Positions 3,001 through 33,560 of a DNA stretch of 35,748 nucleotides are shown here, piece by piece. This DNA comes from a virus. The notes below the pieces were generated by a model. That model saw only the letters and a program-made list of their open reading frames with translations, made no database searches and was not told where the DNA came from. The first letter of the stretch is position 1. Each line of letters begins with the position of its first letter. The DNA lies in the IMG/VR virus record IMGVR_UViG_3300047357_001736, positions 1 to 35,748 of that record, one strand, 5' to 3'. A program made the translations under genes and the position numbers.

Positions 3001-4072
3001 TTCAGTAACTCCAACTAACACTGTTACTCCAACCTCTTCAATTACCCCAACAAGCTCTGTTACCCCAACAATTTCAGTAACTCCAACAATCTCAGTTACT
3101 CCGACAAGCACCGTTACTCCAACAATCTCAGTTACTCCAACAAGCACCGTTACTCCAACAATCTCAGTTACCCCAACAAGCACCGTAACTCCAACAATCT
3201 CAGTTACCCCAACAAGCACCGTAACTCCAACAATCTCAGTTACTCCAACAAGCACCGTAACTCCAACAATCTCAGTTACTCCAACAAGCACCGTAACTCC
3301 AACAATCTCAGTTACCCCAACAAGCACCGTAACTCCAACAATCTCAGTTACCCCAACAAGCACCGTAACTCCAACAATCTCAGTTACCCCAACAAGCACC
3401 GTAACTCCAACAAGCACCGTAACTCCAACAATCTCAGTCACTCCAACAATCTCAGTTACCCCAACAAGCACCGCAACTCCAACAATCTCAGTTACCCCAA
3501 CAAACACCGTAACTCCAACAATCTCAGTCACTCCAACAATCTCAGTTACCCCAACAAGCACCGCAACTCCAACAATCTCAGTTACTCCAACAAGCACCGT
3601 AACCCCAACAATCTCAGTTACTTCAACAATTTCAGTCACTCCAACCCCAACTATCACTCCATCAACATCAACTATTCATACTCAATACATAAGATTTACT
3701 CATGAAACAGTATTTTTACGCGAAGGATTAACTACTGGTATTGATGTATATAGATCTGAGCCTCATAATATAGAAGCTCGTATTGATTTTACTACTAGCG
3801 GCATTGAAAATAGCGCTGTAGTCAATGAAGATTATGTATCAGGCTCTGGAATCTTGATATTTACAAATACAGGAGGCATTGGAGATTTCAAGCAAACAAT
3901 TACAGTGACAGGATTACCACTAATTGATGCAGATGATGACCCTGATCATGAAGATACTGAAGTATTTTTCTTGAAGTTAAGTAATCCAAGAAGCTCTTCT
4001 ATTAATGTTGAAATTACTGGAGTTAATCCTTATCCAGTATTTATATTGGAAGATAAAGACCCTCAGTCTTAA
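2..4072 (+). CDS. Giant Pro/Thr/Ser-repeat virion surface (tail-fibre-like) protein, 5'-partial
   Basis: The frame is open to the left edge (codons from base 2 read [10 protein letters not shown]), so the TTG at 20 is probably internal and the gene starts upstream. Numbering residues from that TTG, residues about 165-295 resemble a discoidin (F5/8 C-like) sugar-binding fold. Three Calx-beta-like beta-sandwiches follow at about 421-565, 633-750 and 1222-1345; the last two share the ending 'GVNPYP-hydrophobic'. They are separated by linkers rich in TPT and SVTPT at about 318-420, 567-632 and 751-1221. No transmembrane segment or C-terminal anchor is visible. Calx-beta and discoidin folds are common in adhesins and phage fibres, so a host-contact or decoration role is likely but inferred. 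The linkers are mucin-like and could be O-glycosylated. The stop overlaps the stop of the convergent gene in a shared TTAA. Confidence 0.8.
1115..1204 (+). repeat. 30-bp tandem repeat in first Thr/Pro linker
   Basis: Two identical 30-bp copies start at 1115 and 1145 (first bases ACACCAACTAATACTTTCAC), and a third, diverged copy starts at 1175. They lie in frame in the fibre gene and encode a ten-residue Thr/Pro unit ([10 protein letters not shown]). Copy-number change would keep the reading frame. Confidence 0.85.
2275..3660 (+). repeat. Long coding tandem array, 36-bp unit ([12 protein letters not shown])
   Basis: Most of this stretch repeats a 36-bp unit that encodes the twelve residues [12 protein letters not shown], with variants (NTAT, SSIT, NSVT, STIT). 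The copies from about 3100 to 3420 are nearly identical at the DNA level. Larger blocks are also repeated: the stretch starting near 2455 resembles the one starting near 2698. It is a repeat domain inside the fibre gene; there are no spacers, so it is not a CRISPR array. Near-identity suggests recent expansion, and assembly of this region from short reads may be unreliable. Confidence 0.9.
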
Positions 4073-13859: not shown

Positions 13860-16307
13860 ATGGACATAAAAGTAAAAAAAAGAAACGGTAGACTAGAAGA
13901 TTTTATTGTAGACAAAATAAATGCAAGTGCTCAAAGAGCTTGTGAAGGTATCAGCGATGTATCTCCAAGTGAAATAGTTTTAGATGCACAATTGCAATTA
14001 TTTGATAAGATTACTACTAAAGAATTAGATCAAGCATTAATTTTCTCGGCAAGAGAAAAGATTGAAAAAGAGCCAAACTATTCGCTTGCAGCCGCTCAGC
14101 TTTTATTAAATAATTTATATAAAGAGGTCTTCAAAGAGGGGGTCGATTCCGATACTTTCAAACTTCAATACAGAAAAAGTTTCATACAAAATACTAAAAA
14201 GTTAGTTAAAGAAAACCGTCTAGACAAAAGGCTTTTAGACTTTGACTTAGAGAAACTTTCAGAAGCAATTAAAATTCGCAGAGACAAGCAATTAAGATAT
14301 TTAGGTGTACAAATACTGTATGATAGGTACTTTATCAGGGTTAATGATAAAATCACGGAAGCTCCACAATCGTTTTTTATGCGAGTTGCAATGGGGCTAT
14401 CTATTAATGAAAAAGATAAAGATAAGAAGGCTATAGATTTCTACAATTTAATTAGCCAACAGCTTTATACCCCATCTACTCCAACACTTTTTAACAGTGG
14501 AACTACCCATTCACAACTTAGCTCCTGTTATCTTAATACTTTTGATGATAGTATTGATGGTATCTTTGACGGTGCTTGGCAAGAAGCTCGTAAATCAAAA
14601 TACGCTGGTGGCCTTGGCCTTGATGTTACCCCTTTTCGCTCTACAGGCGCTTATATTCAGGGAACTAATGGCATCTCTAGCGGCCTTGTTCCTTGGCTTA
14701 AAATATACAACGATCTTTTGGTTGCCGTAAATCAAGGTGGCAAAAGGCCAGGCGCTGGTTGTGCCTACCTAGAACCTTGGCATTTAGATTTTGAAGACTT
14801 CCTTAACTTAAGAAGGAATACTGGGGATGATAGACTTAGATGTCACGACTTAAATACTGCAGCATGGATTCCAGACGAGTTCATGCGTAGAGTTAAGAAC
14901 GAAGAGGATTGGTATTTCTTCGATCCAAGCGAAATGGTTTATGAAGACGGAAAGACTCTCCACGATTTCTTTGGTAAAGATTTTGATGATAGATACGAAG
15001 ATGCATGTCGAGCTGCAGAAGATGGTCGTATCAATAACTTTAGAAAAATTCCAGCCAAGGAGCTTTGGAAAAAAATGCTAAAGGTTTTATTTGAAACGTC
15101 TCATCCATGGAACACATTTAAAGATCCTTGCAATATTAGATATACCAACCAGCATCAAGGTGCGGTTCGTAGCTCAAATTTATGCACGGAAATTACATTA
15201 CACACAAAACCCTCAAAGTACGAGAGTGGTGAAAAAGTAGAAATTGGAGAAACGGCAGTGTGTAACCTAGGTTCCGTTAACGTTTTAAATCATTTAGATG
15301 AAAATGGAGATATAGATTTCAATCTATTAAAATCAACAATACATACAGCAATAAGAATGCTTGATAATGTTATTGATATTAACTTTTACCCAACGAAAGA
15401 GGCTAGTAATTCAAATTTAAAAAATAGACCTGTAGGCATAGGGGTAATGGGCATACAAGATGTTTTGCATAAAAAGAATATACAAATTGATAGTGATGAA
15501 GCTGTAGAGTGGAATAATTATTTTTTTGAATTTTATAGCCAACAAGCTATTTTAGCCAGCTCAACGTTAGCCAAGGAAAGAGGTAGTTACAAAAATTACG
15601 AAGGCTCACTATGGTCTCAAAATATACTACCAATTGACAGTTGGAATAATTTAAGTAAATACAGAAAAAGCAAAAATCCTGAAGCCAAAGAATCATTAAA
15701 ATCTTGGGATGAAGTTAGAGCTCACGTATCAGAATATGGTATGCGTAACTCAAATGTTATGGCCATTGCTCCAACAGCAACAATAGGTTACATAAATGGT
15801 GTAGAGCAAAGCATAGAACCAAACTTTTCTGTTTTATTTGTTTACGAAAATAAAAGTGGAAACTTCTTCATTACAAACCCTCATTTTGTTAACGATATGA
15901 AACAAGAAGGTTTATGGAATTTAGAGATGGCATCAATGGTAAAGAACGTAGATGGGGACTTATCCTTACTTAATGGCAGCATACCTGAACATATAAAAAA
16001 TAAGTACAAAACAGCTTTTGATAGGGACATGTTAAAACTTATTGAAAGTAATGCTGCTCGCCAAAAATGGATTGATCAAGCAGTCAGTTTTAACTTATAT
16101 AACAAAACTACTTCTCTAAAATATCTCAATGATATATATATGTCATGCTGGGAATCAGGCTTAAAAACTACCTATTATCTCAGGAATAGAGCAGCCAGTA
16201 AAGTAGAAAAGTCTACTACTTCAACTGAATCTAACGCTAAATCCGAACCTACTGCATGCAGTATAGAAGCCATGAAAAATGGTGAAACTTGCGAAAGTTG
16301 CCAGTAG
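13860..16307 (+). CDS. nrdA: Class I ribonucleoside-diphosphate reductase, alpha subunit
   Basis: 815 aa. It reduces ribonucleoside diphosphates to deoxy forms together with NrdB. A single N-terminal ATP-cone (about 3-90, VKKRNGRLEDFIVDKI) gives dATP/ATP activity control. The active-site set is complete: Cys223 (QLSSCYLNT) and Cys468 (AVCNLGS) as the redox pair, Cys442 in NLCTE as the thiyl radical residue with Asn440 and Glu444. TTYYLRNRA holds the two tyrosines of the radical-transfer path. The C-terminal CESCQ carries the shuttle cysteines 811 and 814. The Nudix gene follows with no gap. nrdB is 5.4 kb downstream, separated by an adhesin on the other strand, although alpha and beta genes are often adjacent. 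Confidence 0.97.
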   Translation: MDIKVKKRNGRLEDFIVDKINASAQRACEGISDVSPSEIVLDAQLQLFDKITTKELDQALIFSAREKIEKEPNYSLAAAQLLLNNLYKEVFKEGVDSDTFKLQYRKSFIQNTKKLVKENRLDKRLLDFDLEKLSEAIKIRRDKQLRYLGVQILYDRYFIRVNDKITEAPQSFFMRVAMGLSINEKDKDKKAIDFYNLISQQLYTPSTPTLFNSGTTHSQLSSCYLNTFDDSIDGIFDGAWQEARKSKYAGGLGLDVTPFRSTGAYIQGTNGISSGLVPWLKIYNDLLVAVNQGGKRPGAGCAYLEPWHLDFEDFLNLRRNTGDDRLRCHDLNTAAWIPDEFMRRVKNEEDWYFFDPSEMVYEDGKTLHDFFGKDFDDRYEDACRAAEDGRINNFRKIPAKELWKKMLKVLFETSHPWNTFKDPCNIRYTNQHQGAVRSSNLCTEITLHTKPSKYESGEKVEIGETAVCNLGSVNVLNHLDENGDIDFNLLKSTIHTAIRMLDNVIDINFYPTKEASNSNLKNRPVGIGVMGIQDVLHKKNIQIDSDEAVEWNNYFFEFYSQQAILASSTLAKERGSYKNYEGSLWSQNILPIDSWNNLSKYRKSKNPEAKESLKSWDEVRAHVSEYGMRNSNVMAIAPTATIGYINGVEQSIEPNFSVLFVYENKSGNFFITNPHFVNDMKQEGLWNLEMASMVKNVDGDLSLLNGSIPEHIKNKYKTAFDRDMLKLIESNAARQKWIDQAVSFNLYNKTTSLKYLNDIYMSCWESGLKTTYYLRNRAASKVEKSTTSTESNAKSEPTACSIEAMKNGETCESCQ

Positions 16308-16745: not shown

Positions 16746-17462
16746 ATGGAACTAGACTTTTCTGATAAAATTAGAGCAAGAATACTAGAGGAAGTTGGAT
16801 CTGAAGAAGAAATCTCTGAAGAAGCTTGGGCCTCTGAAAAAAATAAGGGTAAAACCTTGAACAAGCCATTTAGAACCTCAGGAGGACCTAAAAAGTTTTC
16901 TGTTTATGTTAAGAATGAAAAAGGTAATGTTGTTAAGGTAAACTTCGGCGATCCAAACATGGAGATTAAACGCGACGATCCTGCTCGTAGAAAATCTTTC
17001 AGGGCTCGCCATAATTGCGACAACCCAGGCCCTAAGACTAAAGCTAAATACTGGTCTTGTAAAATGTGGTCGAAGAAAAGTGTGACTAAAGTTACCAAGG
17101 GTTCAGAGGAAGAGGCTGAATTGGCTCTACTTGAATGGCTAGACGAATCACTTTCTAAACATTCAGGCTTAACAGAAAAGCAAAAAAAGTTACCAGAAGC
17201 AATCCAGAAATCGATTCTAAAAAAGAAAGGTAAATCTGGAGACTCCAAGGATAATAAGAAAGAATCTGACAAGGAAGGTTCTGATAAAAAAGAAGAGTCT
17301 GATGCAAAAAAGGGTCTTTGGGAAAATATTCGCGATAAGAAAAAACGCGAAGGCAAAAATTATCGCCCCGCAAAACCAGGCGATAAAGATTATCCAGACC
17401 CTAAAGCCCTTAAAAAAGCTCAAGAATCTAGTAAAAAGAAGAAAGACTCCAAGAAGTCATAA
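16746..17462 (+). CDS. Lys-rich phage protein with conserved Cys/Trp domain and DUF5872-like tail
   Basis: 238 aa. Residues about 45-105 form a compact domain (KFSVYVKNEKGNVVKVNFGD, then RKSFRARHNCDNPGPKTKA, then YWSCKMW) seen in many phage proteins of unknown function. After it come helix segments, a strongly charged Lys/Glu/Ser/Asp region, and a C-terminal GLWENIRDKKKREGKNYRPA segment, similar to the 'GLWxNIxxKRKR' motif of DUF5872. It may be a virion-internal or DNA-associated protein, but this is not shown. TATTAT and TATATA lie just before the ATG, without a clear -35. The stop codon abuts the encoded CCA of the tRNA gene on the other strand. Confidence 0.6.
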   Translation: MELDFSDKIRARILEEVGSEEEISEEAWASEKNKGKTLNKPFRTSGGPKKFSVYVKNEKGNVVKVNFGDPNMEIKRDDPARRKSFRARHNCDNPGPKTKAKYWSCKMWSKKSVTKVTKGSEEEAELALLEWLDESLSKHSGLTEKQKKLPEAIQKSILKKKGKSGDSKDNKKESDKEGSDKKEESDAKKGLWENIRDKKKREGKNYRPAKPGDKDYPDPKALKKAQESSKKKKDSKKS

Positions 17463-17552
17463 TGGCGGAGAGAGTGGGATTCGAACCCACGGTGGGTTTT
17501 ACCCCACACAGCATTTCCAATGCTGCACAATCGGCCACTCTGTCATCTCTCC
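17463..17552 (-). tRNA. tRNA-Ser (anticodon GGA), CCA encoded
   Basis: On the minus strand: acceptor GGAGAGA pairing with TCTCTCC, D-arm with GTGGCC, anticodon stem CAGCA/TGCTG around loop TTGGAAA (anticodon GGA, reading UCU/UCC), a long variable arm as in serine tRNAs, T-arm GTGGG-TTCGAAT-CCCAC, discriminator G and encoded CCA. It is the only RNA gene seen. It lies opposite to the flanking genes and directly abuts the stop codon at 17460-17462. Confidence 0.93.
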
Positions 17553-17624
17553 TTATTTATATAATACACCTATTGGCGTCATTAATGCATATATTATATT
17601 AAGAATACTCATAATGAGGTTCCC

Positions 17625-17641
17625 GAGAGCCGAAAGGTCTC
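17625..17641 (+). promoter_or_regulatory. GNRA-loop hairpin in the hsp20 leader
   Basis: GAGA-g-CC-GAAA-GG-TCTC: a six-pair stem with one bulged G and a GAAA tetraloop, 25 bp before the hsp20 ATG. A possible promoter lies upstream (TTGGCG 17573-17578, 16 bp, TATATT 17595-17600), which would place the hairpin in the leader. Leaders of small heat-shock genes often hold RNA thermometers, but the hairpin here does not visibly cover the start site. The element is suggestive only. Confidence 0.35.
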
Positions 17642-17666
17642 ACTAACAATAGAAAGATAATATATT

Positions 17667-21699: not shown

Positions 21700-22713
21700 A
21701 TGTCAGACAAAACTGGAGAACTTTTAACTAAAAATATCGCTGGAGTAAATAGAATTTTGCCCCATAAACACAAGTATGCATGGGATTTATTTCTAAAAAG
21801 TTGTGCCAATAACTGGATGCCTACAGAAATCAGCATGCAGAACGACATAAAACAATGGAAAAACGATGAAATCACAGAAGATGAAAAATTACTTGTCAAA
21901 CGCTGCTTAGGCTTCTTTGCTGGATCGGAGTCTTTGGTTGGCAATAACCTTTTACTTTCTGCTTTTCGATTTATTACGGACGCTGAATGCCGTCAGTACA
22001 TTCTTCGTCAAGCTTTTGAAGAAAGCCTTCACAATCTTACGATAGTTTACATTTGTGACAGCTTGGATCTGGATATAGATGAAGTGTTCACTGCTTACGA
22101 AACCATTCCGAGTATTAAAGCTAAGGATGATTTTCTAATGAGCATTACTAATGATATTAGTAGGCAAGATTTTGATCCACATACAAAAGAAGGCAAGCAA
22201 GAAGTCCTTAGAAACTTTTTAACTTACTGGATCGTTTGCGAAGGTACATTCTTTTTTAGCGGATTCGCTATGCTTCTCGCTCTAGGTAGACAAAACAAAT
22301 TGCAAGGAGTATCTGATCAAATTAAATATACACTCAGAGACGAAAGTTCTCATATTGCATTCGGTGCATACTTAATTAACACCCTAATTGAACAAAATCC
22401 ATCCATTTGGACTAAATCAATTCAAGATGAATTTATCGAGCACATTAAAAAAGCAGTTGAGCTAGAAATTGCCTATGCTCACGATGTGCTTCCTACGGGT
22501 ATCTTGGGACTCAATGCTGAAATGTTTGTCGATTATATGTATTACATAGGTAACAGAAGGCTTGAATCTATTGGTCTAGATTACAGGTTCCCTAGTGATC
22601 AAAATCCATTCCCTTGGCTCAGTGAAGTTGTTGATGTTCAAGCAATGGGTAACTTTTTTGAACGCAGGGTGAGAGAATACCAACAAAGTGGTTCCCTTGA
22701 AGATGATTTTTAA
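21700..22713 (+). CDS. nrdB: Class I ribonucleotide reductase beta subunit, class Ic-like (no radical Tyr)
   Basis: 337 aa ferritin-like metal subunit. By alignment to known R2 motifs the metal ligands are Glu77 (GFFAGSESLVGNN; most R2 have Asp), Glu108 and His111 (FEESLHN), Glu181 (VCEGTFFFSGF), Glu215 and His218 (RDESSH). The residue four after His111, which is the radical tyrosine in standard R2, is Ile115. Glu as first ligand together with loss of this tyrosine is the signature of chlamydia-type class Ic R2 (Mn/Fe cofactor, metal-based oxidant). HNLTIVYICDSL also follows the chlamydial block (as I recall it). The C-terminal Tyr327 needed for radical transfer to NrdA is kept. It partners with nrdA at 13860-16307 and has its own promoter. 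Confidence 0.95.
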   Translation: MSDKTGELLTKNIAGVNRILPHKHKYAWDLFLKSCANNWMPTEISMQNDIKQWKNDEITEDEKLLVKRCLGFFAGSESLVGNNLLLSAFRFITDAECRQYILRQAFEESLHNLTIVYICDSLDLDIDEVFTAYETIPSIKAKDDFLMSITNDISRQDFDPHTKEGKQEVLRNFLTYWIVCEGTFFFSGFAMLLALGRQNKLQGVSDQIKYTLRDESSHIAFGAYLINTLIEQNPSIWTKSIQDEFIEHIKKAVELEIAYAHDVLPTGILGLNAEMFVDYMYYIGNRRLESIGLDYRFPSDQNPFPWLSEVVDVQAMGNFFERRVREYQQSGSLEDDF

Positions 22714-23085: not shown

Positions 23086-24179
23086 GTAAAACATTAGATC
23101 AAATTACTAAATTCCTAGATAACAAGGAGAATCAAAAATACCACTTCAATCATTTTGAAGAAGAAGAGTACAAAATATCAAGTGGAAGCTTGAATTTAGA
23201 TTTAGCATTAGGTGGTGGGTTACCAGCTGGAGCACACAGGTTTACAGGGATTAATGAAGGGGGCAAAACAAGCTGTGCACTAACTGTTGCTAGAAACTTT
23301 CAAGAAAAGTTTGGTAAAACAGGTATGGTTGTCGTCGTAAAGTCTGAAGGTAGGCTAAGTAAAGAAATGCTACAAAGAACAGGAGTAGACCAAGATCCAG
23401 AAAAGTTCTTTATCCTTGATTGCAATATATTCGAAAAAGTTTTTGAGTTCATCAGAGATTTAGTTTTTAACAATGAAGATAAAAAGAAGTACATGTTCAT
23501 TATCGATAGCGTTGATGCTCTTTGTCGAATGAATGACATGGATAAACCTTTTAATGAGAGCGAGCAAGTTGCTGGAGGAGCACTAGTTACATCTGTATTT
23601 TTAAAAAAAATGGTATTACCTATCACAAAAATGGGCCATATGATGCTTTTAACATCACAGGTTCGTGTTGAAGTTGCGGCTAATCCTTACGCGGCCAGAG
23701 GTGGACCAAAGGTCAAGCAGGCTGGCGGTAATGCGATTAAACATTATGCTAACTTTATTTTAGAATTTGAAGAACGCTACAATAATGATATAATGTGGGA
23801 AAACCCTTCTGCATCAAAGATTGAAGACAAAGGTAATCCAATAGGACATTATTGTAAAATTAGATTTAGAAAAAGTATTAATGAAAAAACTGGAGCTCAA
23901 GTTCGCTACCCAATTAGATACGGTAGAACTGACGGTAATTCAATTTGGTTAGAAAAAGAAATCATTGACATGATGTACCTTTGGGGCTTCATCGAAAAGA
24001 AAGGAGCCTGGATATCATTTGATGAAGAAATTTTATCAGAGTTAAAGAAAGAAAACATTGAGTGCCCTGAAAAAATACAAGGCGACAATAAACTATTAGA
24101 GCTACTTGACTCAGATGGAAAAATAAAACAATTTTTTTATAATACAATAAATAACATATTTAGTAATGAAGAAAAATAA
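23082..24179 (+). CDS. RecA/UvsX-like recombinase
   Basis: 365 aa. Walker A is GINEGGKT (56-63) and Walker B YMFIIDSVDAL (Asp142); Glu89 in VVKSEGRLS fits the RecA catalytic Glu. TSQVRVEVAANPYAARGGPK matches the DNA-binding loop L1/L2 region. It forms the ssDNA filament for strand exchange and recombination-dependent replication, like T4 UvsX. The C-terminal ~70 residues are acidic/basic and phage-specific. Overlaps the upstream gene by ATGA and the next glycosyltransferase by 14 bases, so it is expressed together with glycan genes. Confidence 0.92.
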   Translation: MSKTLDQITKFLDNKENQKYHFNHFEEEEYKISSGSLNLDLALGGGLPAGAHRFTGINEGGKTSCALTVARNFQEKFGKTGMVVVVKSEGRLSKEMLQRTGVDQDPEKFFILDCNIFEKVFEFIRDLVFNNEDKKKYMFIIDSVDALCRMNDMDKPFNESEQVAGGALVTSVFLKKMVLPITKMGHMMLLTSQVRVEVAANPYAARGGPKVKQAGGNAIKHYANFILEFEERYNNDIMWENPSASKIEDKGNPIGHYCKIRFRKSINEKTGAQVRYPIRYGRTDGNSIWLEKEIIDMMYLWGFIEKKGAWISFDEEILSELKKENIECPEKIQGDNKLLELLDSDGKIKQFFYNTINNIFSNEEK

Positions 24180-25431
24180 AATATTTATATCGATAGCTAG
24201 TTACAGAGATCCAGAACTTATTCCAACCATTGAAAACTGCATAAAAAATGCAGACAATCCCGAGCATTTAGTTTTTGGAATATCCAGACAGTATCATCCT
24301 GACGACAAGTTTGATGATTTATCTAAATATAAAAAGAAAAAAAACTTCAGGGTCATAGAAACAGACTATAAAAAAAGTTTAGGGGTATGTAATGCTCGAC
24401 ATCATATTCAACAGCTTTTCAAGGATGAAGAATACTATTTGCAATTAGATTCCCATCATCGCTTCATTAAAGGCTGGGATACTAAAGTTAAAAAGACTTT
24501 AAATGATCTCAAAAAATCTGGCAGCAAAAAACCTTTACTGACAGCATACTTACCTTCATATGATCCCGAAGCTAAAGATGAAAATAGATTAAAAGATGTA
24601 TGGCGCATGTATATAGATAGGTTTATGCCAGAAGGCCCAGTTTTTATTTTTCCAGAATCAATTCAAGGTTGGTCGAAAAAAAACAGTAAGCCTGAAAAAT
24701 CCAGATTTACGAGTGGTCACTTCATTTTCACTTTAGGATCTTTTATTCAAGAAGTCCCTTATGACCCACAGCTTTACTTCCATGGAGAAGAAAGCTCACT
24801 AGCCGCTCGAGCATATACATGGGGTTACGACCTCTTCCATCTCCATAAACCTTGGTTTTGGCACCACTATACACGAGCAGGCAAGGCTAGACACTGGGAC
24901 GATGTCTCTAAGTGGGCCAAGCTAAACAAAGAAAGCTTTACTCGATATCGAAAATTATTCGGAATGGATGGATGCAGGAGACAGCACTTTAATAAATATG
25001 GCTTCGGTAAAGAGCGTAGTCTTGCAGACTATGAAATCTATTCAGGAATTTCTTTCAAAGATAGAAAAATCCAACAACACACGCTTGACAGAAAAGAGCC
25101 GCCAACTCCATTTAAATCCAAGAAAGATTATAAAAATAATTTTGTCTCTAAGTTTAAGTATTGTATAGATATACATAAACCTGCATTTACTGAAAATGAT
25201 TATGATGTTTGGGTCATAGCATTTAAAGATAAAAATGGAAAAGAAATGGTTAGGCTCGATGCAGATGAGCAAGAATTAAATAATTTATTAAAACAAAATC
25301 CAAAAGATGATTTTGTTAGATTATGGAGAGAGTTTGAAACTTCAGATCTTCCAAAGTCTTGGTTAATTTGGCCCCATTCAAAGTCTAAAGACTGGATGGA
25401 TATCATAGAAGGAGAAGTTCCAGCTCCTTGA
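24166..25431 (+). CDS. GT60-like (GlcNAc-type) glycosyltransferase, paralogue 1
   Basis: 421 aa. The first ~260 residues fit the 'Glycosyltransferase (GlcNAc)' family (PF11397-type, GT60): IFISIASYRDPELIPTIENC, FGISRQYH, the metal-site motif LQLDSHHRF followed by KGWD, SGHFIFTLG, and FHGEESSLAARAYTWGYD with HxPxFWHHY. Known members add alpha-GlcNAc to Thr or hydroxyproline of proteins, for example mucins of Trypanosoma cruzi. A C-terminal extension of ~150 residues starts YGFGKERSLADYEIY. Overlaps the recombinase by 14 bases. Its target could be the Thr-rich virion linkers; that is inference. Confidence 0.8.
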   Translation: MKKNKIFISIASYRDPELIPTIENCIKNADNPEHLVFGISRQYHPDDKFDDLSKYKKKKNFRVIETDYKKSLGVCNARHHIQQLFKDEEYYLQLDSHHRFIKGWDTKVKKTLNDLKKSGSKKPLLTAYLPSYDPEAKDENRLKDVWRMYIDRFMPEGPVFIFPESIQGWSKKNSKPEKSRFTSGHFIFTLGSFIQEVPYDPQLYFHGEESSLAARAYTWGYDLFHLHKPWFWHHYTRAGKARHWDDVSKWAKLNKESFTRYRKLFGMDGCRRQHFNKYGFGKERSLADYEIYSGISFKDRKIQQHTLDRKEPPTPFKSKKDYKNNFVSKFKYCIDIHKPAFTENDYDVWVIAFKDKNGKEMVRLDADEQELNNLLKQNPKDDFVRLWREFETSDLPKSWLIWPHSKSKDWMDIIEGEVPAP

Positions 25432-26693
25432 GAACAATTCTTGTCCATCTTCCAGCTTATAGAGAGCCAGAATTAATCCCTACAATTCAAAGCGCTCTTT
25501 CAAATGCTGCACATCCAGAAAGAATACACTTTGGTATTTGCAGGCAATTTTGCGAAGAAGATAGGTTTGATAACATTGATGAATATAGAAGCGATCCGCG
25601 TTTTAAAATTCATGACATGCCTTATACAGAGGCGAAAGGTCTAGCAACAGCTCGAGCGATCATCAACGACGAGTTACTAACAGATGAAGATTTTGTTTGT
25701 CAGCTAGACTCCCACCATCGATTTACAAAAGATTGGGACAATACTTTGATTGGATGGTATGATAATTTAAAAGATGAAGGCTATAACCCTATTATCGGAG
25801 GATACCTACCTTACTACAATCCATTTAATGACCCCGAAGATAGGGTGCAAGAACCTTGGTTTTCTGAAGCTGCATGTTTTTATCCTCATAACACTATCTT
25901 TATTCGCCCAACAGCAGTAAGAGAATGGAAAACTTTAACAAAGCCTTATCCAGCTAGATTTTTAAGCGGACATTTTGCATTCAGTTCTAATCAATGGGCC
26001 AGAGATGTCAAGCATGATAGAGATATATTTTTCGCTGGCGAAGAACTTAATTTAAGTGTTCGAAGTTTTACTCATGGTTATGATTTATTTCACCCACACG
26101 AAGTCGTTATTTGGCATGCAACAATGAGAGAAGAAAGAGCTGGAAAATTAGTGTGGGATGATCAAAGTAAACGCGGAGAAGATATGTGGTGGAAAGGAAA
26201 CGACTCTGCTAGGGCCAGAATCAGACAGCTTATAGGCGTAGAAGATAATGGTATTGATTTAGGTGAGTACGGTCTAGGTGATAAAAGATCATTAAGAGAT
26301 TACGAAAAATATGCGGGCATTCATTTTAAGAAAAAATCTTTTCAAAAATACACTAAAGACAATTATTTCCCCCCTAATCCCTATCCATATAAAAATGAAA
26401 AAGAATGGGAAGATAGTTTTATGTTCTCCTTTTATCATTTAGTAAATTTAGAACGGCATGAAATGCCTAAAGATGATTATGAATCCATACTCGTAGCGTT
26501 TGATGATGAAAATGGAGAAGGCATCTTCTCTACATCAATCGAAGGAGAAAGGCTAAACCAATTTATGAAAAATTCAAAACCAATACATTACGAAGAAATG
26601 TTTTTAACTGATAAAAAGCCAGCTCGCGTTGTTTACTGGGGTGCCAGCAAAAAACGCGGTTGGACAGAAAGAGTAGAAAGGCAAATACCATGA
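25428..26693 (+). CDS. GT60-like (GlcNAc-type) glycosyltransferase, paralogue 2
   Basis: 421 aa, the same length and domain order as the preceding gene: HLPAYREPELIPTIQSALSN, FGICRQFCEEDRF, CQLDSHHRFTKDWD, LSGHFAFSSNQW, FAGEELNLSVRSFTHGYDLF, and the C-terminal YGLGDKRSLRDYEKYAG extension. The two are tandem paralogues, diverged well beyond recent copying. The start is TTG at 25428, which overlaps the upstream TGA (TTGA), the same coupling device as ATGA. Possibly the two act in sequence or on different acceptors. Confidence 0.8.
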   Translation: MRTILVHLPAYREPELIPTIQSALSNAAHPERIHFGICRQFCEEDRFDNIDEYRSDPRFKIHDMPYTEAKGLATARAIINDELLTDEDFVCQLDSHHRFTKDWDNTLIGWYDNLKDEGYNPIIGGYLPYYNPFNDPEDRVQEPWFSEAACFYPHNTIFIRPTAVREWKTLTKPYPARFLSGHFAFSSNQWARDVKHDRDIFFAGEELNLSVRSFTHGYDLFHPHEVVIWHATMREERAGKLVWDDQSKRGEDMWWKGNDSARARIRQLIGVEDNGIDLGEYGLGDKRSLRDYEKYAGIHFKKKSFQKYTKDNYFPPNPYPYKNEKEWEDSFMFSFYHLVNLERHEMPKDDYESILVAFDDENGEGIFSTSIEGERLNQFMKNSKPIHYEEMFLTDKKPARVVYWGASKKRGWTERVERQIP

Positions 26694-27331
26694 GCGTGCA
26701 AGGTCACTTTACATATAAATCAAAACATGGACATCAAGTAACTGCCATGCAGGTACCTAAAGCACTCGATGTATTCCAATCATTATTTAACCAAGTTCCA
26801 TTCAGTAGAGTCATTGAAATTGGGTCGGCATTTGGCGGCACTACCTTAATGGTAATGGACGCATTAAATAATGCGGGGCAAAAAGACTGTGAGGTTTGGA
26901 CATTTGATACTAATCATAAATCGGCACCCCCAGCCATTCAATCTTATATCGATAAAGGGGAAAATGTAAAATTTTTCAATTATAATGTTTTTAACACAAA
27001 AGTTCATCCTTGGCAAATATTTGACAGGAATTCAGATCCCGTAAAATTCATACAATCTTCTGGTAGAACTCTTGTTTTATGTGATGGCGGCTGCAAACGT
27101 TTAGAGTTCCCTGTGCTTTCTGAATTCTTAAAGCCTGGAGATCACATTATGGCCCATGATTATGCCAAAGATGTAGACTATTTCAATTCTCATATTAAAG
27201 ATAAAATTTGGAATTGGCAGGAGATTAAATTTTCTGATGTAGAAAAACCTTTTGACACTTATAATCTAGAAACTTTTATGAATAATGATTTTAGTTCTGT
27301 TGCTTGGTTAAGTGCTCGCAAAAAATTCTAA
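26690..27331 (+). CDS. SAM-dependent class I methyltransferase-like protein
   Basis: 213 aa from ATG 26690, chosen because it overlaps the upstream TGA (ATGA) and reads MSVQGHFTYKSKHG; a longer frame from 26660 is unlikely. VIEIGSAFGGTTLMVMDAL is the SAM-binding motif I, VWTFDTNHK fits the acidic loop, and LVLCDGGCKRLEF with MAHDYAKDVDYF resemble the cephalosporin-hydroxylase/TylF-like and Methyltransf_24 group often found in phage and bacterial sugar-decoration loci. Probably O-methylates a sugar; substrate not known. Confidence 0.7.
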   Translation: MSVQGHFTYKSKHGHQVTAMQVPKALDVFQSLFNQVPFSRVIEIGSAFGGTTLMVMDALNNAGQKDCEVWTFDTNHKSAPPAIQSYIDKGENVKFFNYNVFNTKVHPWQIFDRNSDPVKFIQSSGRTLVLCDGGCKRLEFPVLSEFLKPGDHIMAHDYAKDVDYFNSHIKDKIWNWQEIKFSDVEKPFDTYNLETFMNNDFSSVAWLSARKKF

Positions 27332-28254
27332 TGTTATTTGCTGGAGACATTTCTGCAGGTCGCACAGAATGGTTTTGGCATTTCAATCAATTGTTTTTTG
27401 AGTTTTTAGAAAGCAAAAAGTTAAATCCAAAACACATACAGCCTAGTGGTAAAGATTCTTCTGGGTACGGAGTTAGAAATCTTTTTGGTTATGAAGTAAG
27501 CTTCAATTTAAACAATTTACTTATAGCTAATCCAAAAACAGAAAAGTGTATATTATTTACAACTTTCTTCGATCTAAGACAACTCAGGGGAGGTCTTAAA
27601 AACTTACCAATTAATAATATTGAAGCCGTCTACTCTGGACATTATGATGAAAAAATAATTAAGCGAGATTGGCCTGAAATTATACCTAAAATTAAACCTT
27701 GGTATTTTAGACCTTGGCGTACTAATTCTGCATATAAAGAAAATTGCTATAACCCTAAAAACGACAACATTTATTTCAGGGGCTTAATGATCCCTGGGGT
27801 CCGAAATCTCTTAGATCATTTATCTAAATCAAACATTAAAGGTATTAATATTCAAAGCTCTAAATCCAAAAATTACCATGAAGAGCTAACTTCCTCTAGA
27901 TTAGCTTTTTCCATGTCAGGCATTAGAGATATGTGTAACCGTGATATCGAATATTGGCTAACTGGCATGCCTTTTATTAGACCTAGATTTACATCTAAAT
28001 TATTAATTAATATACCAGACGACACATATATACCTATAGATTGGGAACCCAACTATAACGCCTTAACTCCAATCCCTAAAAATATTGAGTTACTATCTCA
28101 ACACATAATTGAAAAATATCAATCAGTCAGAAAAGATTATAATTACCTAAATAAAATTTCTCGAAATGGTTACAATTTTTATAAATCTAATTTCACAATG
28201 GATTTAATGATTAAAAATACATTTAATTTATTATTAAAATCAAATATTATATAA
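27331..28254 (+). CDS. Putative glycosyltransferase (GT-B-like)
   Basis: 307 aa from ATG 27331 (TAATG overlap with the upstream stop); a longer frame from 27304 would extend into the methyltransferase. A C-terminal block SSRLAFSMSGIRDMCNRDIE followed by YWLTGMPFIRP resembles the sugar-binding end of GT-B or exostosin-like enzymes ('s+l.ls..G....c.R..E.la.G..pi'). The N-terminal DISAGRTEWFWHFNQLF is not typical. Assignment rests on these segments and the surrounding glycan genes. Confidence 0.5.
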   Translation: MLFAGDISAGRTEWFWHFNQLFFEFLESKKLNPKHIQPSGKDSSGYGVRNLFGYEVSFNLNNLLIANPKTEKCILFTTFFDLRQLRGGLKNLPINNIEAVYSGHYDEKIIKRDWPEIIPKIKPWYFRPWRTNSAYKENCYNPKNDNIYFRGLMIPGVRNLLDHLSKSNIKGINIQSSKSKNYHEELTSSRLAFSMSGIRDMCNRDIEYWLTGMPFIRPRFTSKLLINIPDDTYIPIDWEPNYNALTPIPKNIELLSQHIIEKYQSVRKDYNYLNKISRNGYNFYKSNFTMDLMIKNTFNLLLKSNII

Positions 28255-28255
28255 T

Positions 28256-28400
28256 ATGAATTGCGTTATATCACTATATGATGAAGACTATTCCTGGACT
28301 AATTTACTGCCAAATTAAAAATGATTTCAGCAATTGCATTTTATACCAATCTAATATTAGTGAAGGTAAATCTTTAATATTGCAAAAAAGATCATTTTAA
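28256..28400 (+). pseudogene. Decayed or frameshifted small ORF between glycan genes
   Basis: ATG 28256 gives MNCVISLYDEDYSWTNLLPN and stops at 28316. Skipping one base restores a frame KNDFSNCILYQSNISEGKSL that runs to TAA 28398-28400. The combined ~47-residue product looks like the beginning of a GT-type protein of the 'S-x-Y-x-D-x-x-W' kind (DUF3431-like), cut off before its core. It may be a relic of gene loss in the cluster. The only other content of this 149-bp gap is AT-rich sequence. Confidence 0.35.
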
Positions 28401-28403
28401 ATT

Positions 28404-29369
28404 GTGATTTATTTTTTTTCAGATCCATATATTTATTCTTTTGAAAACCTATATCCACTTTATTTAAAATGTAAAGAAAGTAATATAGATTGTTTTTTTG
28501 ATACTGAATTCTCCCATCAAGGTTCAAATATATCAAAGACAGCTAAATTTCATAAAGGAAAGCGTAATTTAAGTAAAATTAGGAAGGGAGAGCTACCTCA
28601 ACCAAAATTAGTAATATTAAATCAGTGCTGGGGATTAACTGGCGGAAAAATATGTAAAGAGTTTTCCTCAAAAGGGATTCCAGTTATCACAACAGAGCAT
28701 GGGTCACCTATGCTTTACTATGGGGAAGGTTATTATAGAGGCAACTTAAGAGGATCTATTTCCCATCCAACCTGGGGTAAAGTAGGTTCGGAATTAATGA
28801 TTAAATTTGGCTGTAAACCAGAAACCGTACCAGCCCTAGGTAGTCCAAGAATAGATTATTATTTTGCTAGCAGAGAAATTAAATCAAAAAAAAACAACGA
28901 TGCTGTAATTTTTGGAACGAAAAAAGAAGGAATGAAGCCTTGGTCTAAAAGTATAGAAGAAAAAGTAAACATAATTTGCGAGAAACATAATAATGTAAAA
29001 TTTAAAGGAAAAGTTTTAGGTCCAATGAATGTGCAAAAACTTGAATCAATAGATAAGGATTTTTCTTCTGATGATTTTTATAACTTATTCAACAATATAG
29101 GTCATGCGTATTTCTGGTTTCCTTCTAGTTTGATAACCATCGCAAAAGTTATGGGGTGTAAAACATATGCATTATATTCTGATTCTAAATGCAAATATAC
29201 ATCTAAATATTTCAATGATCATAAAGATCATATTATTCCATATACATCAAGTAAACCAATTAATACTGAGTCTAATTCTACTTTTTTAGATGATAATTTA
29301 ACCAACAACGGCACTGAAAATATCTTAAATTATATATTAAATGAAAAAAGTTTCAATATTAATAACTAA
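28404..29369 (+). CDS. Putative GT-B glycosyl- or glycerophosphotransferase
   Basis: 321 aa, start GTG 28404. PVITTEHGSPMLYYGEGYYR matches the region of TagF/CDP-glycerol-type and related GT-B enzymes where a conserved His precedes the donor site. PALGSPRIDYYF fits the usual 'x-G-x-P-R-x-D' motif of that group, and GHAYFWFPSSLITIAKVMGC the end of the C-terminal Rossmann half. Probably transfers a sugar or polyol phosphate. Overlaps the next GT2 gene by 29 bases. Donor unknown. Confidence 0.5.
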   Translation: MIYFFSDPYIYSFENLYPLYLKCKESNIDCFFDTEFSHQGSNISKTAKFHKGKRNLSKIRKGELPQPKLVILNQCWGLTGGKICKEFSSKGIPVITTEHGSPMLYYGEGYYRGNLRGSISHPTWGKVGSELMIKFGCKPETVPALGSPRIDYYFASREIKSKKNNDAVIFGTKKEGMKPWSKSIEEKVNIICEKHNNVKFKGKVLGPMNVQKLESIDKDFSSDDFYNLFNNIGHAYFWFPSSLITIAKVMGCKTYALYSDSKCKYTSKYFNDHKDHIIPYTSSKPINTESNSTFLDDNLTNNGTENILNYILNEKSFNINN

Positions 29370-29943
29370 TTACAATTACGGTCGATATATCAATAGATGT
29401 ATCAGATCTTGCTTAAATCAAAACTTTAATCAAAACGAATATGAAATCATAATCATTGACGACAACAGTAATGACAATAGTTGCTCTCAATTAAACTACT
29501 GGAATAACAAAGAAAACATTAGGGTAATTTTTAACGAAGAAAATTTAGGCTTGGGTCATAGCTGCAACAGGGGTCTAGCTGAATGTAGGTCTCCATATGT
29601 CGTAAGGGTCGATGCAGATGACTACATTAATGAAAACTTTTTATTATTTTTATACAATTATGCACACTACAATAAATCCCAAGCTGTCGCATGTGATTAT
29701 ATTCAAGTAGATTTTAATGAAAATGTTATAGCTCGCAGCAATCCAAAAGAAAACCCTATAGCTTGCGGAATATTATTCAGGTTGGATTGTTTAGATTTTG
29801 TTGGAGGATATTCTAATCAAAGGGTTGGTGAGGAAGTTGAATTAAGAGGTAGGTTCGATAAACATTTTAATGTTGAATATTTAAACTTACCCCTTTATAG
29901 ATATATGAAACATGAAAAATCTTTAACCAGTATAAATAAATAA
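29341..29943 (+). CDS. GT2 glycosyltransferase
   Basis: 200 aa. Classic inverting GT-A family 2: VSILITNYNYGRYINRCIRS, IIIIDDNSND, ENLGLGHSCNRGL, and VVRVDADDYI with DADD as metal site; GGYSNQRVGEEVELRGRF fits the ED/GEE catalytic-base region. The short length means the catalytic domain only, with no membrane anchor. It is a normal sugar-adding enzyme for a glycan chain in this cluster; substrate unknown. Confidence 0.88.
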   Translation: MKKVSILITNYNYGRYINRCIRSCLNQNFNQNEYEIIIIDDNSNDNSCSQLNYWNNKENIRVIFNEENLGLGHSCNRGLAECRSPYVVRVDADDYINENFLLFLYNYAHYNKSQAVACDYIQVDFNENVIARSNPKENPIACGILFRLDCLDFVGGYSNQRVGEEVELRGRFDKHFNVEYLNLPLYRYMKHEKSLTSINK

Positions 29944-29953
29944 AATTTTAATT

Positions 29954-30598
29954 ATGGAATTAGAAAATATTTTTTTTAAAAAATGTAACACATCAAAAGA
30001 TGAGTATTTTAAATATTTAAATGATGCTGAGGAACTAACAGAAGATTTTAAGTATAGGCACTTCGATAATCACGCCAAGTCACTACTCGGCTGTTATCGC
30101 TGGAAGGGCGTTTATCAACATAGAGACTATTTAAAAAATATTCTTGAATCATCTAACTCCATAGATCTCGGAGGAGCTGCAAGTCCAATAGGCAATTCAA
30201 TAGTGGTGGATAATTTAAAATTTGACTATAATAATAATCCTGTAAAGTATAACACCATTGAAAGTGTTGACTTTGATGTGAATTTTATTTTTTCTTCACA
30301 CACTTTAGAGCATGTTTTTGATATTAAAGGAATACTCTTATCAATGTCTCGCAAACTAAATGAATCTGGTTCAATCTTCTTACATCTACCTGCTTATACA
30401 TGCAAAAGATGGCTTCCTGGAATTCACTCTCATTTAGATTTTGGAGATCATCAGTGGTCTTTTTCTTTATCTAGTGATAAAAACGCTCCTTCAACTGATA
30501 GAAATATTGTAATCGATAAACTTGTTAAAAACTACTTTAATAATATCAAGTCTTTTTATACTGGTGATAATTCAATAATTGTGATGGCTGACAAATGA
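29954..30598 (+). CDS. SAM methyltransferase-like protein
   Basis: 214 aa. NSIDLGGAASPIGNSIVVDN gives a degenerate SAM motif I. VNFIFSSHTLEHVFDIKGIL is the strongest block ('SSHTLEH' of class I methyltransferases), followed by LNESGSIFLHLPAY. HSHLDFGDHQWSF is typical of sugar-cluster methyltransferase-like proteins. It overlaps the NeuA-like gene by ATGA. It probably modifies a sugar or its carrier. Confidence 0.65.
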   Translation: MELENIFFKKCNTSKDEYFKYLNDAEELTEDFKYRHFDNHAKSLLGCYRWKGVYQHRDYLKNILESSNSIDLGGAASPIGNSIVVDNLKFDYNNNPVKYNTIESVDFDVNFIFSSHTLEHVFDIKGILLSMSRKLNESGSIFLHLPAYTCKRWLPGIHSHLDFGDHQWSFSLSSDKNAPSTDRNIVIDKLVKNYFNNIKSFYTGDNSIIVMADK

Positions 30599-31143
30599 GA
30601 ATACACACACTAATACCAGCGAGAGGTGGTTCCAAGCGGCTTAAATATAAAAATATTTATCCCTTAAAAGGCAAACCTTTAATTCTCTGGACAATAGATG
30701 CTGCCTTAGGATCAAAATATATTAATAAAAATAATCTTTATATATCTACTGAAGATCAAAAAATTAAAAATGTATGCTGTGATTTTCAAATCATTGATCG
30801 TCCACACGAACTGTCTGGAGATGATGTATGGACTCAGCCAGTAGTTGACCATTTTACACAATATATTAATGCTCAAGACGATGATATTATAGTTTTATTG
30901 CAGGCAAATTCTCCTCAAATTACAAGCCTAGTAATAGATCAATGTATAGATAAACTTATTAATAATAACTTATGGCAAGTGCATACTACTGGAGAAGATC
31001 TAATTCACAATGGAGCAGTTCATGTTTACAGAAATTTCGTAAGCTCTCACAAAGGTAAAATAAGTTATAATGGTTTTGTTGTAACAAATTGGCTTGATAT
31101 TCATACAAAAAACGATATAATAGAATTACTTAAAATATTATGA
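30595..31143 (+). CDS. Compact CMP-nonulosonate cytidylyltransferase (NeuA-like)
   Basis: 182 aa. LIPARGGSKRLKYKNIYPLK is the nucleotide-binding motif of CMP-sialic, CMP-legionaminic or CMP-pseudaminic acid synthetases; RPHELSGDDVWTQPVVDHF, IVLLQANSPQI and the terminal NWLDIHTKNDIIELL follow in family order. Family members are usually about 220-240 aa, so ~45 residues are missing from the middle and the enzyme is a compact form. It activates a nine-carbon acidic sugar with CTP. It is directly followed by the NeuB-like gene (ATGA), the usual pairing for this pathway. Confidence 0.82.
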   Translation: MRIHTLIPARGGSKRLKYKNIYPLKGKPLILWTIDAALGSKYINKNNLYISTEDQKIKNVCCDFQIIDRPHELSGDDVWTQPVVDHFTQYINAQDDDIIVLLQANSPQITSLVIDQCIDKLINNNLWQVHTTGEDLIHNGAVHVYRNFVSSHKGKISYNGFVVTNWLDIHTKNDIIELLKIL

Positions 31144-31871
31144 GTCTTACTATAGCTGCAGAACTAGGAATTAATCATAATGGTGACATGGATTTGTGTC
31201 ATGAGTTAATTAGACAAGCCTCCATTAACGGTGCGGACTTAGTCAAATTTCAATTATATGAACCTAAAATACTTTTTGCAGATGAACCACATTTAATAGC
31301 AGAAGGTCAAAGGTGTCAATTCGATTATGAAGAATTTAAAAGAGTTTTAGATTGGTGTCACGAAGAATCTATAGAACCATTTTTTAGCGTCTTTGATGAA
31401 ACCAGATTAGCTTGGACAGAAAAACATGATTGCAAAATTTACAAGATTGCATCTAGATCTGTTAAAAAAAACCCAGATTTTTGCAAAACTATCTGCGATT
31501 TAGGTAAACCAACTTATGTAGCACTGGGCATGGAGTCTCTAGAAAAAGCTAAATGTATAATGAGTGATTATAGTAATGTGAAATATTTGTTTTGCAAATC
31601 TCTATACCCATCTCAGTATAAAGACTATTCAGATCAACCTAAAGATTACCCTAGTTCTGAATACTACGGAATATCAGACCATACTCATGGCATTGAAATG
31701 TCTCTTTTAGCTATAGCAAGAGGGGCATCTTTTGTGGAAAAACATTTTACCCTGTCAAAATCAATGAATGGTTCAGACCACAAATGCAGTATTACCCCTT
31801 CAGAATTATTTAGTTTAAAACAGTATGGAACTTCACTATGTAAATGTTATAATATATGTAGTAAAAGATAA
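31140..31871 (+). CDS. NeuB-like nonulosonate synthase lacking the SAF domain
   Basis: 243 aa. Condenses an N-acetyl-hexosamine with PEP to make a sialic-type acid. The TIM-barrel blocks AAELGINHNGDMDLCHELI, ADLVKFQLYEP, KIYKIASRS, FCKSLYPSQYKDYS, YYGISDHTHGIEMS and FVEKHFTL with GSDHKCSITPSEL match NeuB. Family members are about 340 aa with a C-terminal antifreeze-like SAF domain; here the protein ends right after the barrel, so the domain is absent. The exact product (sialic, legionaminic or pseudaminic acid) cannot be told. No NeuC or other upstream enzyme is visible, so precursors may come from the host. Confidence 0.85.
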   Translation: MSLTIAAELGINHNGDMDLCHELIRQASINGADLVKFQLYEPKILFADEPHLIAEGQRCQFDYEEFKRVLDWCHEESIEPFFSVFDETRLAWTEKHDCKIYKIASRSVKKNPDFCKTICDLGKPTYVALGMESLEKAKCIMSDYSNVKYLFCKSLYPSQYKDYSDQPKDYPSSEYYGISDHTHGIEMSLLAIARGASFVEKHFTLSKSMNGSDHKCSITPSELFSLKQYGTSLCKCYNICSKR

Positions 31872-31874
31872 CAA

Positions 31875-33560
31875 ATGAACAACAATTTAACCATAGTTAG
31901 TGGCCTCTGGGACATTAATCGCGTCGGACGCGATTGGTCTAGATATGAAGAGCACTTTGATAAATTTCTAAAAATTCCATGCAATATGGTACTCTGGATT
32001 CCTAAGTCGCTGGAGTCATTTGTGTGGGAGCGCCGATCAAAGGAAAACACATTTGTTCGCATTTATGAATTAGAGGATATCAAAACTGGAATGTTTTCAC
32101 CTTTTTGGGACAAATGGCAATTAATTAGAACTAGCGAAAAGTGGCGAAATCAGGCGGGCTGGCTACCCGAAAGTCCTCAGTGTAAAAATGAATACTACAA
32201 TCCTATCGTCATGTCCAAAATGTTTTTCTTGCATGACTCAAAAGTATGGAATCCATTTGATACGGACTATTTTATATGGCTCGACGCAGGAATCAGTCAA
32301 ACAGTTTATGAAAATTATTTTTACGAGTCTACAAATCTAGACCGTATCACCAAAAATTTAGATCCGTTTTTATTCCTTTCTTACCCTTACGAAGCTGATA
32401 AGGAAATTCATGGCTTTGAATTTAATGCTATCAATAGATACGCTGGCTCCAAAGTTGATTATGTTTGTCGCGGTGGATTATTTGGTGGGCACAAAGATTT
32501 TATATCTCAAGCTAATGGAGAGTATTACCATCTTCTTGAAAGAACTATCAATGAAGGCTTAGCTGGTACAGAAGAAAGCATTTTTGCTATACTAGCAAAA
32601 CTGCACCCTGATAATTATCGACGCTACGAGCTGGACAGTAACGGTTTAATTGTAAAATTCATGCAAGCTATCAACGATGATACTGCCAATTTAGTTCCCG
32701 TTGATAAACCTAAAAATCAATTCAAACCAGTCGTTAATGATATATCTAGCATAAAAACTAATTTATATTTTTTAACATTCAATTTCCCTGAGCAACTCGA
32801 AGCGACGATTAAGTCTCTACAAAAACATGAAGGCTTCTTAACTCACCCTTTTCAAAAAATTGTTATTGACAACTCTACAAATCAAGAAGCTCGCGCGGGC
32901 AATAAATTGATTTGTGATAAATACGGATTTCATCATATAATAATGAATAAGAACACTGGAATCTGCGGAGGCAGGCAATTTGCTGCAGAGCATTTTCACT
33001 CCAGCGATTCTGATTTTTATTTATTCTTCGAAGATGATATGACAATATCAGACCCAGAGGAAGGATTATGCCGAAATGGATTCCAAAAACACATCCCAAA
33101 TCTTTATAAAAAAATCCATCAAATTATGTTGAAAGAAAGGTTTGACTTCCTTAAACTTTCTTTTACTGAGGTATATATGGACAACCAAGTGCAAGTTAGT
33201 TGGTATAATGTTCCTCAGGATGTCAGAACCTCAAACTGGCCAGACTACGACAAGCTGCCCACTACTGGACTTGATCCAAATTGCCCTAGAACAACATTTA
33301 AAAACATTAATTCACTTGGTGGGCTTCCTTATATCGACGGGGAAATTTATTATGCTAATTGGCCGCACATTGTTAGCAAGTCTGGCAATCAGAAAATGTT
33401 TATCAATACGAAGTGGGTACACCCTTATGAACAGACTTGGATGTCTCATATTTTTCAAGAAACTAAAAAAGGTGAAATTAAACCTGCGGTTTTGTTAGCT
33501 TCTACCGTCACTCACGATAGATTCAAACACTACAAACCTGAAGAAAGAATCGAAGGTTGA
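31875..33560 (+). CDS. Two-domain glycosyltransferase: HtrL/WlaTC-like plus GT2-like
   Basis: 561 aa. Residues 1-270 match the HtrL/WlaTC group: TIVSGLWDINRVGRDWSRYE, NMVLWIP, YFIWLDAGISQTVY (DAG in the metal-site place), VCRGGLFGGHKDFI and GTEESIFAILAKLHP. Residues about 290-555 form a GT-A domain: NLYFLTFNFPEQLEATIKSL, KIVIDNSTNQ, NKNTGICGGRQFAAEHF, LFFEDDMTI (EDDM as metal site) and a catalytic-side block with FINTKWVHPYEQTW. The fusion suggests two sequential sugar additions by one chain. It is the last glycan gene, 3 bases after the NeuB-like gene. Confidence 0.75.
   Translation: MNNNLTIVSGLWDINRVGRDWSRYEEHFDKFLKIPCNMVLWIPKSLESFVWERRSKENTFVRIYELEDIKTGMFSPFWDKWQLIRTSEKWRNQAGWLPESPQCKNEYYNPIVMSKMFFLHDSKVWNPFDTDYFIWLDAGISQTVYENYFYESTNLDRITKNLDPFLFLSYPYEADKEIHGFEFNAINRYAGSKVDYVCRGGLFGGHKDFISQANGEYYHLLERTINEGLAGTEESIFAILAKLHPDNYRRYELDSNGLIVKFMQAINDDTANLVPVDKPKNQFKPVVNDISSIKTNLYFLTFNFPEQLEATIKSLQKHEGFLTHPFQKIVIDNSTNQEARAGNKLICDKYGFHHIIMNKNTGICGGRQFAAEHFHSSDSDFYLFFEDDMTISDPEEGLCRNGFQKHIPNLYKKIHQIMLKERFDFLKLSFTEVYMDNQVQVSWYNVPQDVRTSNWPDYDKLPTTGLDPNCPRTTFKNINSLGGLPYIDGEIYYANWPHIVSKSGNQKMFINTKWVHPYEQTWMSHIFQETKKGEIKPAVLLASTVTHDRFKHYKPEERIEG

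Follow-up and report, generated by a model that had tools for sequence, protein, structure and literature searches.

A phage NrdB of the class Ic lineage without a radical tyrosine and with a probable manganese/iron cofactor

The nrdA and nrdB genes and the predicted metal site

The window, by which we mean the whole stretch of 35,748 nucleotides analysed here (IMG/VR virus record IMGVR_UViG_3300047357_001736), encodes both subunits of a class I ribonucleotide reductase (RNR). The plus-strand open reading frame at 21700-22713 is complete and uninterrupted and specifies a 337-residue small subunit, NrdB, that matched Pfam Ribonuc_red_sm at 258 bits, NCBIfam PRK07209 at 451 bits (cut-off 309) and the R2 protein of Chlamydia trachomatis (PDB 1syy) at 380 bits. 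The large subunit gene, nrdA, lies on the same strand at a spacing of 5.4 kb, which is smaller in many relatives. The two genes and the residues placed by alignment are listed below with the evidence for each; Trp39 and Tyr327 are given the radical-transfer roles of their counterparts in known R2 proteins, which we take to hold here as well.

13860-16307, plus strand: nrdA, large subunit with one ATP cone and intact catalytic motifs (profile matches, motif check)
21700-22713, plus strand: nrdB, class I RNR small subunit (R2), 337 residues (open reading frame translation, Pfam, NCBIfam, C. trachomatis alignment)
21814-21816, plus strand: Trp39, presumed radical-transfer tryptophan (invariant)
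21928-21930, plus strand: Glu77, metal ligand 1, codon GAG; Glu89 in C. trachomatis, Asp in class Ia (alignment; best 80 of 261 relatives)
22018-22023, plus strand: Glu107 (second sphere) and Glu108 (ligand 2) (NrdBzc pattern, alignment, relatives)
22030-22032, plus strand: His111, ligand 3 (alignment, relatives)
22042-22044, plus strand: Ile115 at the radical-tyrosine position, codon ATA; Phe127 in C. trachomatis (alignment; Val in most relatives)
22240-22242, plus strand: Glu181, ligand 4 (alignment, relatives)
22339-22344, plus strand: Asp214 (second sphere, relay) and Glu215 (ligand 5) (alignment, relatives)
22351-22353, plus strand: His218, ligand 6 (alignment, relatives)
22678-22680, plus strand: Tyr327, presumed C-terminal radical-transfer tyrosine (invariant)

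The phmmer alignment to 1syy is gap-free around the radical site and sets ESLHNLTI of the phage protein on EAVHTHTF, so that Ile115 falls on Phe127 and Glu77 on Glu89. The first-pass annotation had placed isoleucine where the radical tyrosine is expected and glutamate at the first ligand, and the alignment confirmed both residues at the codons it had given. It had also stated that the remaining ligands and the C-terminal tyrosine are kept, and indeed Glu108, His111, Glu181, Glu215, His218 and Tyr327 did not vary across an alignment of 52 sequences. Trp39 and Tyr210 of the relay and Glu107 and Asp214 of the second sphere are all present in the phage protein.

In proteins of the NrdBzc group the ligands run E E H E E H and the second sphere has E and D (PMC6370689 Table 4), and phage NrdB matches all eight of these residues (E77, E108, H111, E181, E215 and H218; E107 and D214). 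The group is further defined by Phe, Leu or Val instead of the radical Tyr (PMC6370689); Val, which most of the phage clade carries, is on this list, and the Ile of the window is absent from it. When an AlphaFold2 model of phage NrdB (mean pLDDT 83) was compared with the PDB, C. trachomatis R2c structures, Mn/Fe forms included, matched best, at 51% identity and TM 0.85-0.87 over the query; such matches of a predicted structure speak to fold and lineage, not to metal content.

Comparison with known R2 proteins placed these features in context. C. trachomatis R2c/NrdBzc (PDB 1syy, 4d8f, 4m1i; ~51% identity), nearest to the phage protein among PDB entries by sequence as well as by fold, shares with it the six ligands, the second-sphere Glu and Asp, the Trp/Tyr/Asp relay, the fold and the lack of a radical Tyr, but it has Phe127 where the phages have Ile or Val, and Cys69 and Cys180 are specific to the phages. 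Class Ia NrdBza proteins, such as those of betaproteobacteria and Pseudomonas putida phage Peetri, share the fold and relay residues at 43-51% identity, whereas 54 of 54 examples combine Asp as ligand 1 with Tyr at the radical site. The Cyano SP R2 of cyanophage P-SSP7 likewise lacks the radical Tyr and has Glu as ligand 1; it differs from the phage protein in having Asp rather than Glu in the second sphere before ligand 2, and in a phylogeny that places it away from class Ic. The nearest match under a phage name, Acinetobacter phage MD-2021a (L082, CAKLQH020000007.1), was set aside, as its nrdAB is class Ia and stands beside PhzF, LysR and hcpC in what looks like bacterial chromosome. Searches with RecA/UvsX-like and terminase proteins reached named phages only at a distance (~25% identity), and a search for the T4-type capsid protein Gp23 gave no match, with its controls silent as well.

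Conservation, linkage and phylogeny

In IMG/VR, 261 stretches encoding relatives were detected, and the best 80 of these, at 87-100% identity, were fetched; a repeat scan of viral contigs based on an alignment gave these 80 again. Glu77 is present in 80 of these best 80, and the radical site is Val in 69 and Ile in 11, a pattern that excludes sequencing error. All ligand and relay residues are invariant across the same set. For 74 full-length copies, counting that of the window, divergence from the window gene had a median pN of 0.06 and a median pS of 0.77, and omega was ~0.03 where finite. The gene is under strong purifying selection, and the gap between pN and pS rules out decay, in agreement with the first-pass view of nrdB. 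On the tree of phage nrdB genes, Val and Ile have exchanged at the radical site at least six times, switching that would be expected of a hydrophobic filler and not of a functional distinction.

Two cysteines, Cys180 (22237-22239) and Cys69 (21904-21906), are invariant in all 80 phage R2s examined (best 80 of 261). Relatives have Met, Phe or Thr in place of the former and Asn, Ser or Ala in place of the latter, and the phage-specific Cys180 stands immediately before ligand Glu181. At the nucleotide level, Glu77 is encoded by GAG in 73 of 74 phage copies, although most other Glu codons prefer GAA and synonymous positions are close to saturated; synonymous sites are also mildly more conserved across codons 46-75.

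Outside the phage clade, ligand 1 and the radical site were strictly linked. Across 82 relatives (80 bacterial loci and two phage-collection loci) we counted 54 with Asp and Tyr, 27 with Glu and Phe and one with Glu and Leu, with no mixtures, and other IMG/VR relatives obeyed the same pairing. Nearly all Asp/Tyr relatives carry Tyr117 beside their radical Tyr, so this residue, which the first-pass annotation had named as a possible occupant of the radical site, is not that site. Motif scans of 922 genomes in three phyla listed cellular R2 matches with Phe at the site and one with Leu, and none with Val or Ile; the Chlamydiota list covered a portion of the matches and the pattern fixes other residues too, so that rare Val/Ile cases may have escaped. 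Four odd hits from these scans, three of them with Val or Ile at the site, were inspected and are not R2 proteins. Val/Ile at the radical site appears to be confined to the phages of this clade.

Phylogenetic analysis was performed after removal of the distant phage class Ia outgroups, with which the long phage branch was drawn to the base and the tool warned of long branches meeting. Once both trait columns had been deleted, an NrdB tree without outgroup joined the phages to the Glu/Phe clade of Chlamydiota, Verrucomicrobiota and Planctomycetota (99/92) on a very long branch (2.9). Constrained alternatives for NrdB alone were not rejected (p-AU 0.39 and 0.23), and because these tests were indecisive NrdA was added, giving a combined alignment of 1124 columns. 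In the NrdA+NrdB tree the phages were nested within the Glu/Phe (class Ic) clade (SH-aLRT 100, 95, 97), and an alternative that placed them with Asp/Tyr sequences of gammaproteobacteria and Glu/Phe sequences of actinobacteria was rejected (p-AU 0.032). The comparison of a nested with a sister position to the class Ic clade gave p-AU 0.22, with long branches blurring the exact place. Sister to the window's phages in this tree were the sequences of three other IMG/VR contigs, L253, L254 and L255.

Taken with the ligand set, the two-subunit phylogeny is most parsimoniously read as descent from a class Ic ancestor, with Val or Ile later replacing Phe. The first-pass annotation had called the gene class Ic-type and proposed alignment with C. 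trachomatis R2 and placement in a tree as its check. The ligand pattern, the linkage, the nearest structures and the NrdA+NrdB tree uphold that reading, with NrdB alone indecisive and with Ile or Val at the site, not Chlamydia's Phe.

Two further groups in these trees deserve mention. The contigs L253, L254 and L255 (436, 74 and 176 kb) encode viral Glu/Phe class Ic-type R2s with Phe at the position of Tyr210. Actinobacterial and some proteobacterial Glu/Phe R2s (L095, L120, L123, L126, L153) group with the Asp/Tyr enzymes and not with the Chlamydia-type Glu/Phe clade, so that repeated origin or repeated loss of the Glu/Phe pair is possible.

Proposed cofactor and alternative readings

We consider it likely that the phage gene encodes the radical-generating R2 of a large marine phage's working class I RNR, of the class Ic lineage, most likely with a Mn(IV)/Fe(III) centre and without a tyrosyl radical. 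The metals, their oxidation states and the electron route in this proposal are modelled on the Chlamydia enzyme. The six carboxylate and histidine ligands, with Glu77 as the first, would bind a pair of metal ions able to react with O2, and the side chain of Val or Ile would fill position 115 in place of Tyr. The metals themselves would then retain the oxidising equivalent, most likely in the Mn(IV)/Fe(III) state, instead of giving it up to a Tyr. From the oxidised centre this equivalent would pass via Trp39/Asp214 to Tyr327, and onward into the phage-encoded NrdA, to its Tyr-Tyr pair and the cysteine of its active site. In 53 of 53 phage copies, NrdA retains this Tyr-Tyr pair together with its catalytic Cys motifs and CxxC tail. 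The first-pass annotation had suggested that such a phage may depend on Mn in low-iron water, and an advantage under low iron is conceivable.

The invariant, phage-specific Cys69 and Cys180 indicate that the phage protein is not simply Chlamydia-like. It is possible, though unlikely, that Val/Ile together with Cys180 (and Cys69) mark a tuned class Ic variant with altered metal preference or cofactor stability, which would fit hosts in metal-poor seawater. We regard as quite unlikely a metal-only initiator with another pair, either Mn/Mn in the manner of class Id or high-valent Fe/Fe; in that case Val/Ile and Cys180 would have turned the metal preference away from Mn/Fe. Glu as ligand 1 is common to classes Ic and Id (PMC6370689 Table 3), Cys180 adjoins a ligand, and the phage branch is long and divergent, but Glu107 is the second-sphere residue of class Ic where class Id has Cys or Ser, class Id structures are ~20% identical to phage NrdB compared with 51% for R2c, and the lineage from the two-subunit tree is that of class Ic.

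A stable radical on some other residue, whether Tyr117, Tyr210, the phage-specific Tyr224 or a Cys, is very unlikely. Tyr117 lies only two residues past the radical site and position 224 is Tyr in the phages where relatives have Asp or Glu; however, Asp/Tyr and Glu/Phe relatives both conserve Tyr117 and Tyr210, which are therefore not replacements, and no Tyr or Trp has been gained in the stretch that bears ligands E77, E108 and H111. Inactive R2 homologues occur in some organisms, and the loss of the radical Tyr might on its face suggest an inactive or regulatory subunit that relies on a radical from the host R2, but this is highly improbable given the 80 of 80 invariance of ligands and relay (best 80 of 261 relatives), the strong purifying selection, the single R2 found per contig in 10 of 10 related phage contigs (126-211 kb) and the intact paired NrdA.

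The defining features of three other subclasses are not those of the phage protein, and class Ie and class Ib were rejected as readings. Metal-free class Ie enzymes have their ligand carboxylates replaced and a modified Tyr, and the phage keeps all carboxylates and has no such Tyr. Class Id (NrdBi) has Cys or Ser before ligand 2 and retains Tyr at the radical position, where the phage has Glu107 before Glu108 and Ile115. Class Ib (NrdF/NrdI) is excluded by the missing radical Tyr and by the lack of any NrdI match in the 10 related phage contigs (126-211 kb, possibly incomplete), in searches whose positive controls matched.

A virus clade without the radical Tyr has already been reported (PMC12918982), which limits the novelty of the present case. 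This bioRxiv preprint of February 2026, based on GOV 2.0, placed 269 marine-virus NrdA sequences next to NrdAz and found Ile or Val at the radical site of the partner beta subunit. The clade was named subclass Ic-like and kept apart from class Ic because the Ic references used there have Phe or Leu, and its cofactor was left between Mn/Fe, another cofactor or none (PMC12918982). It was anti-correlated with predicted iron, with no single metal explaining the pattern (PMC12918982). The phages described here resemble that clade in their alpha subunit nearest NrdAz and in Ile or Val at the radical site of beta, and, from its description as a clade of marine viruses with these traits, the window and its relatives appear to fit within it.

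Our analysis extends that report with the complete class Ic ligand set, the strict pairing of ligand 1 with the radical site, a phylogeny of both subunits, and the finding of neither NrdI nor a second R2 in the 10 related contigs. It also suggests that Val/Ile at the radical site is peculiar to the phages of this clade. The full ligand pattern argues against the metal-free option and against class Id, and the cofactor question of this marine-virus clade becomes a specific, testable prediction, namely Mn/Fe and no protein radical. The evidence indicates that a type of cofactor known chiefly from Chlamydia is common in a marine phage family with contigs of up to ~210 kb, and the metals required for phage DNA synthesis may bear on trace-metal limits to oceanic viral production.

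Other features of the window

Downstream of nrdB, positions 24166-33560 hold a phage glycosylation cluster with two GlcNAc-type glycosyltransferases, one family 2 glycosyltransferase, a cytidylyltransferase (30595-31143) and a NeuB-family protein (31140-31871). A tRNA-Ser(GGA) at 17463-17552 on the minus strand abuts the end of the opposite-strand open reading frame 16746-17462, and the open reading frame 17302-17646 is probably spurious because it reads through this tRNA. At the start of the window, the open reading frame 20-4072 (1350 residues) contains a Pro/Thr/Ser-rich repeat of 36 bp in 36 copies (2345-3645), and the antisense open reading frame 2338-3657 is probably its shadow.
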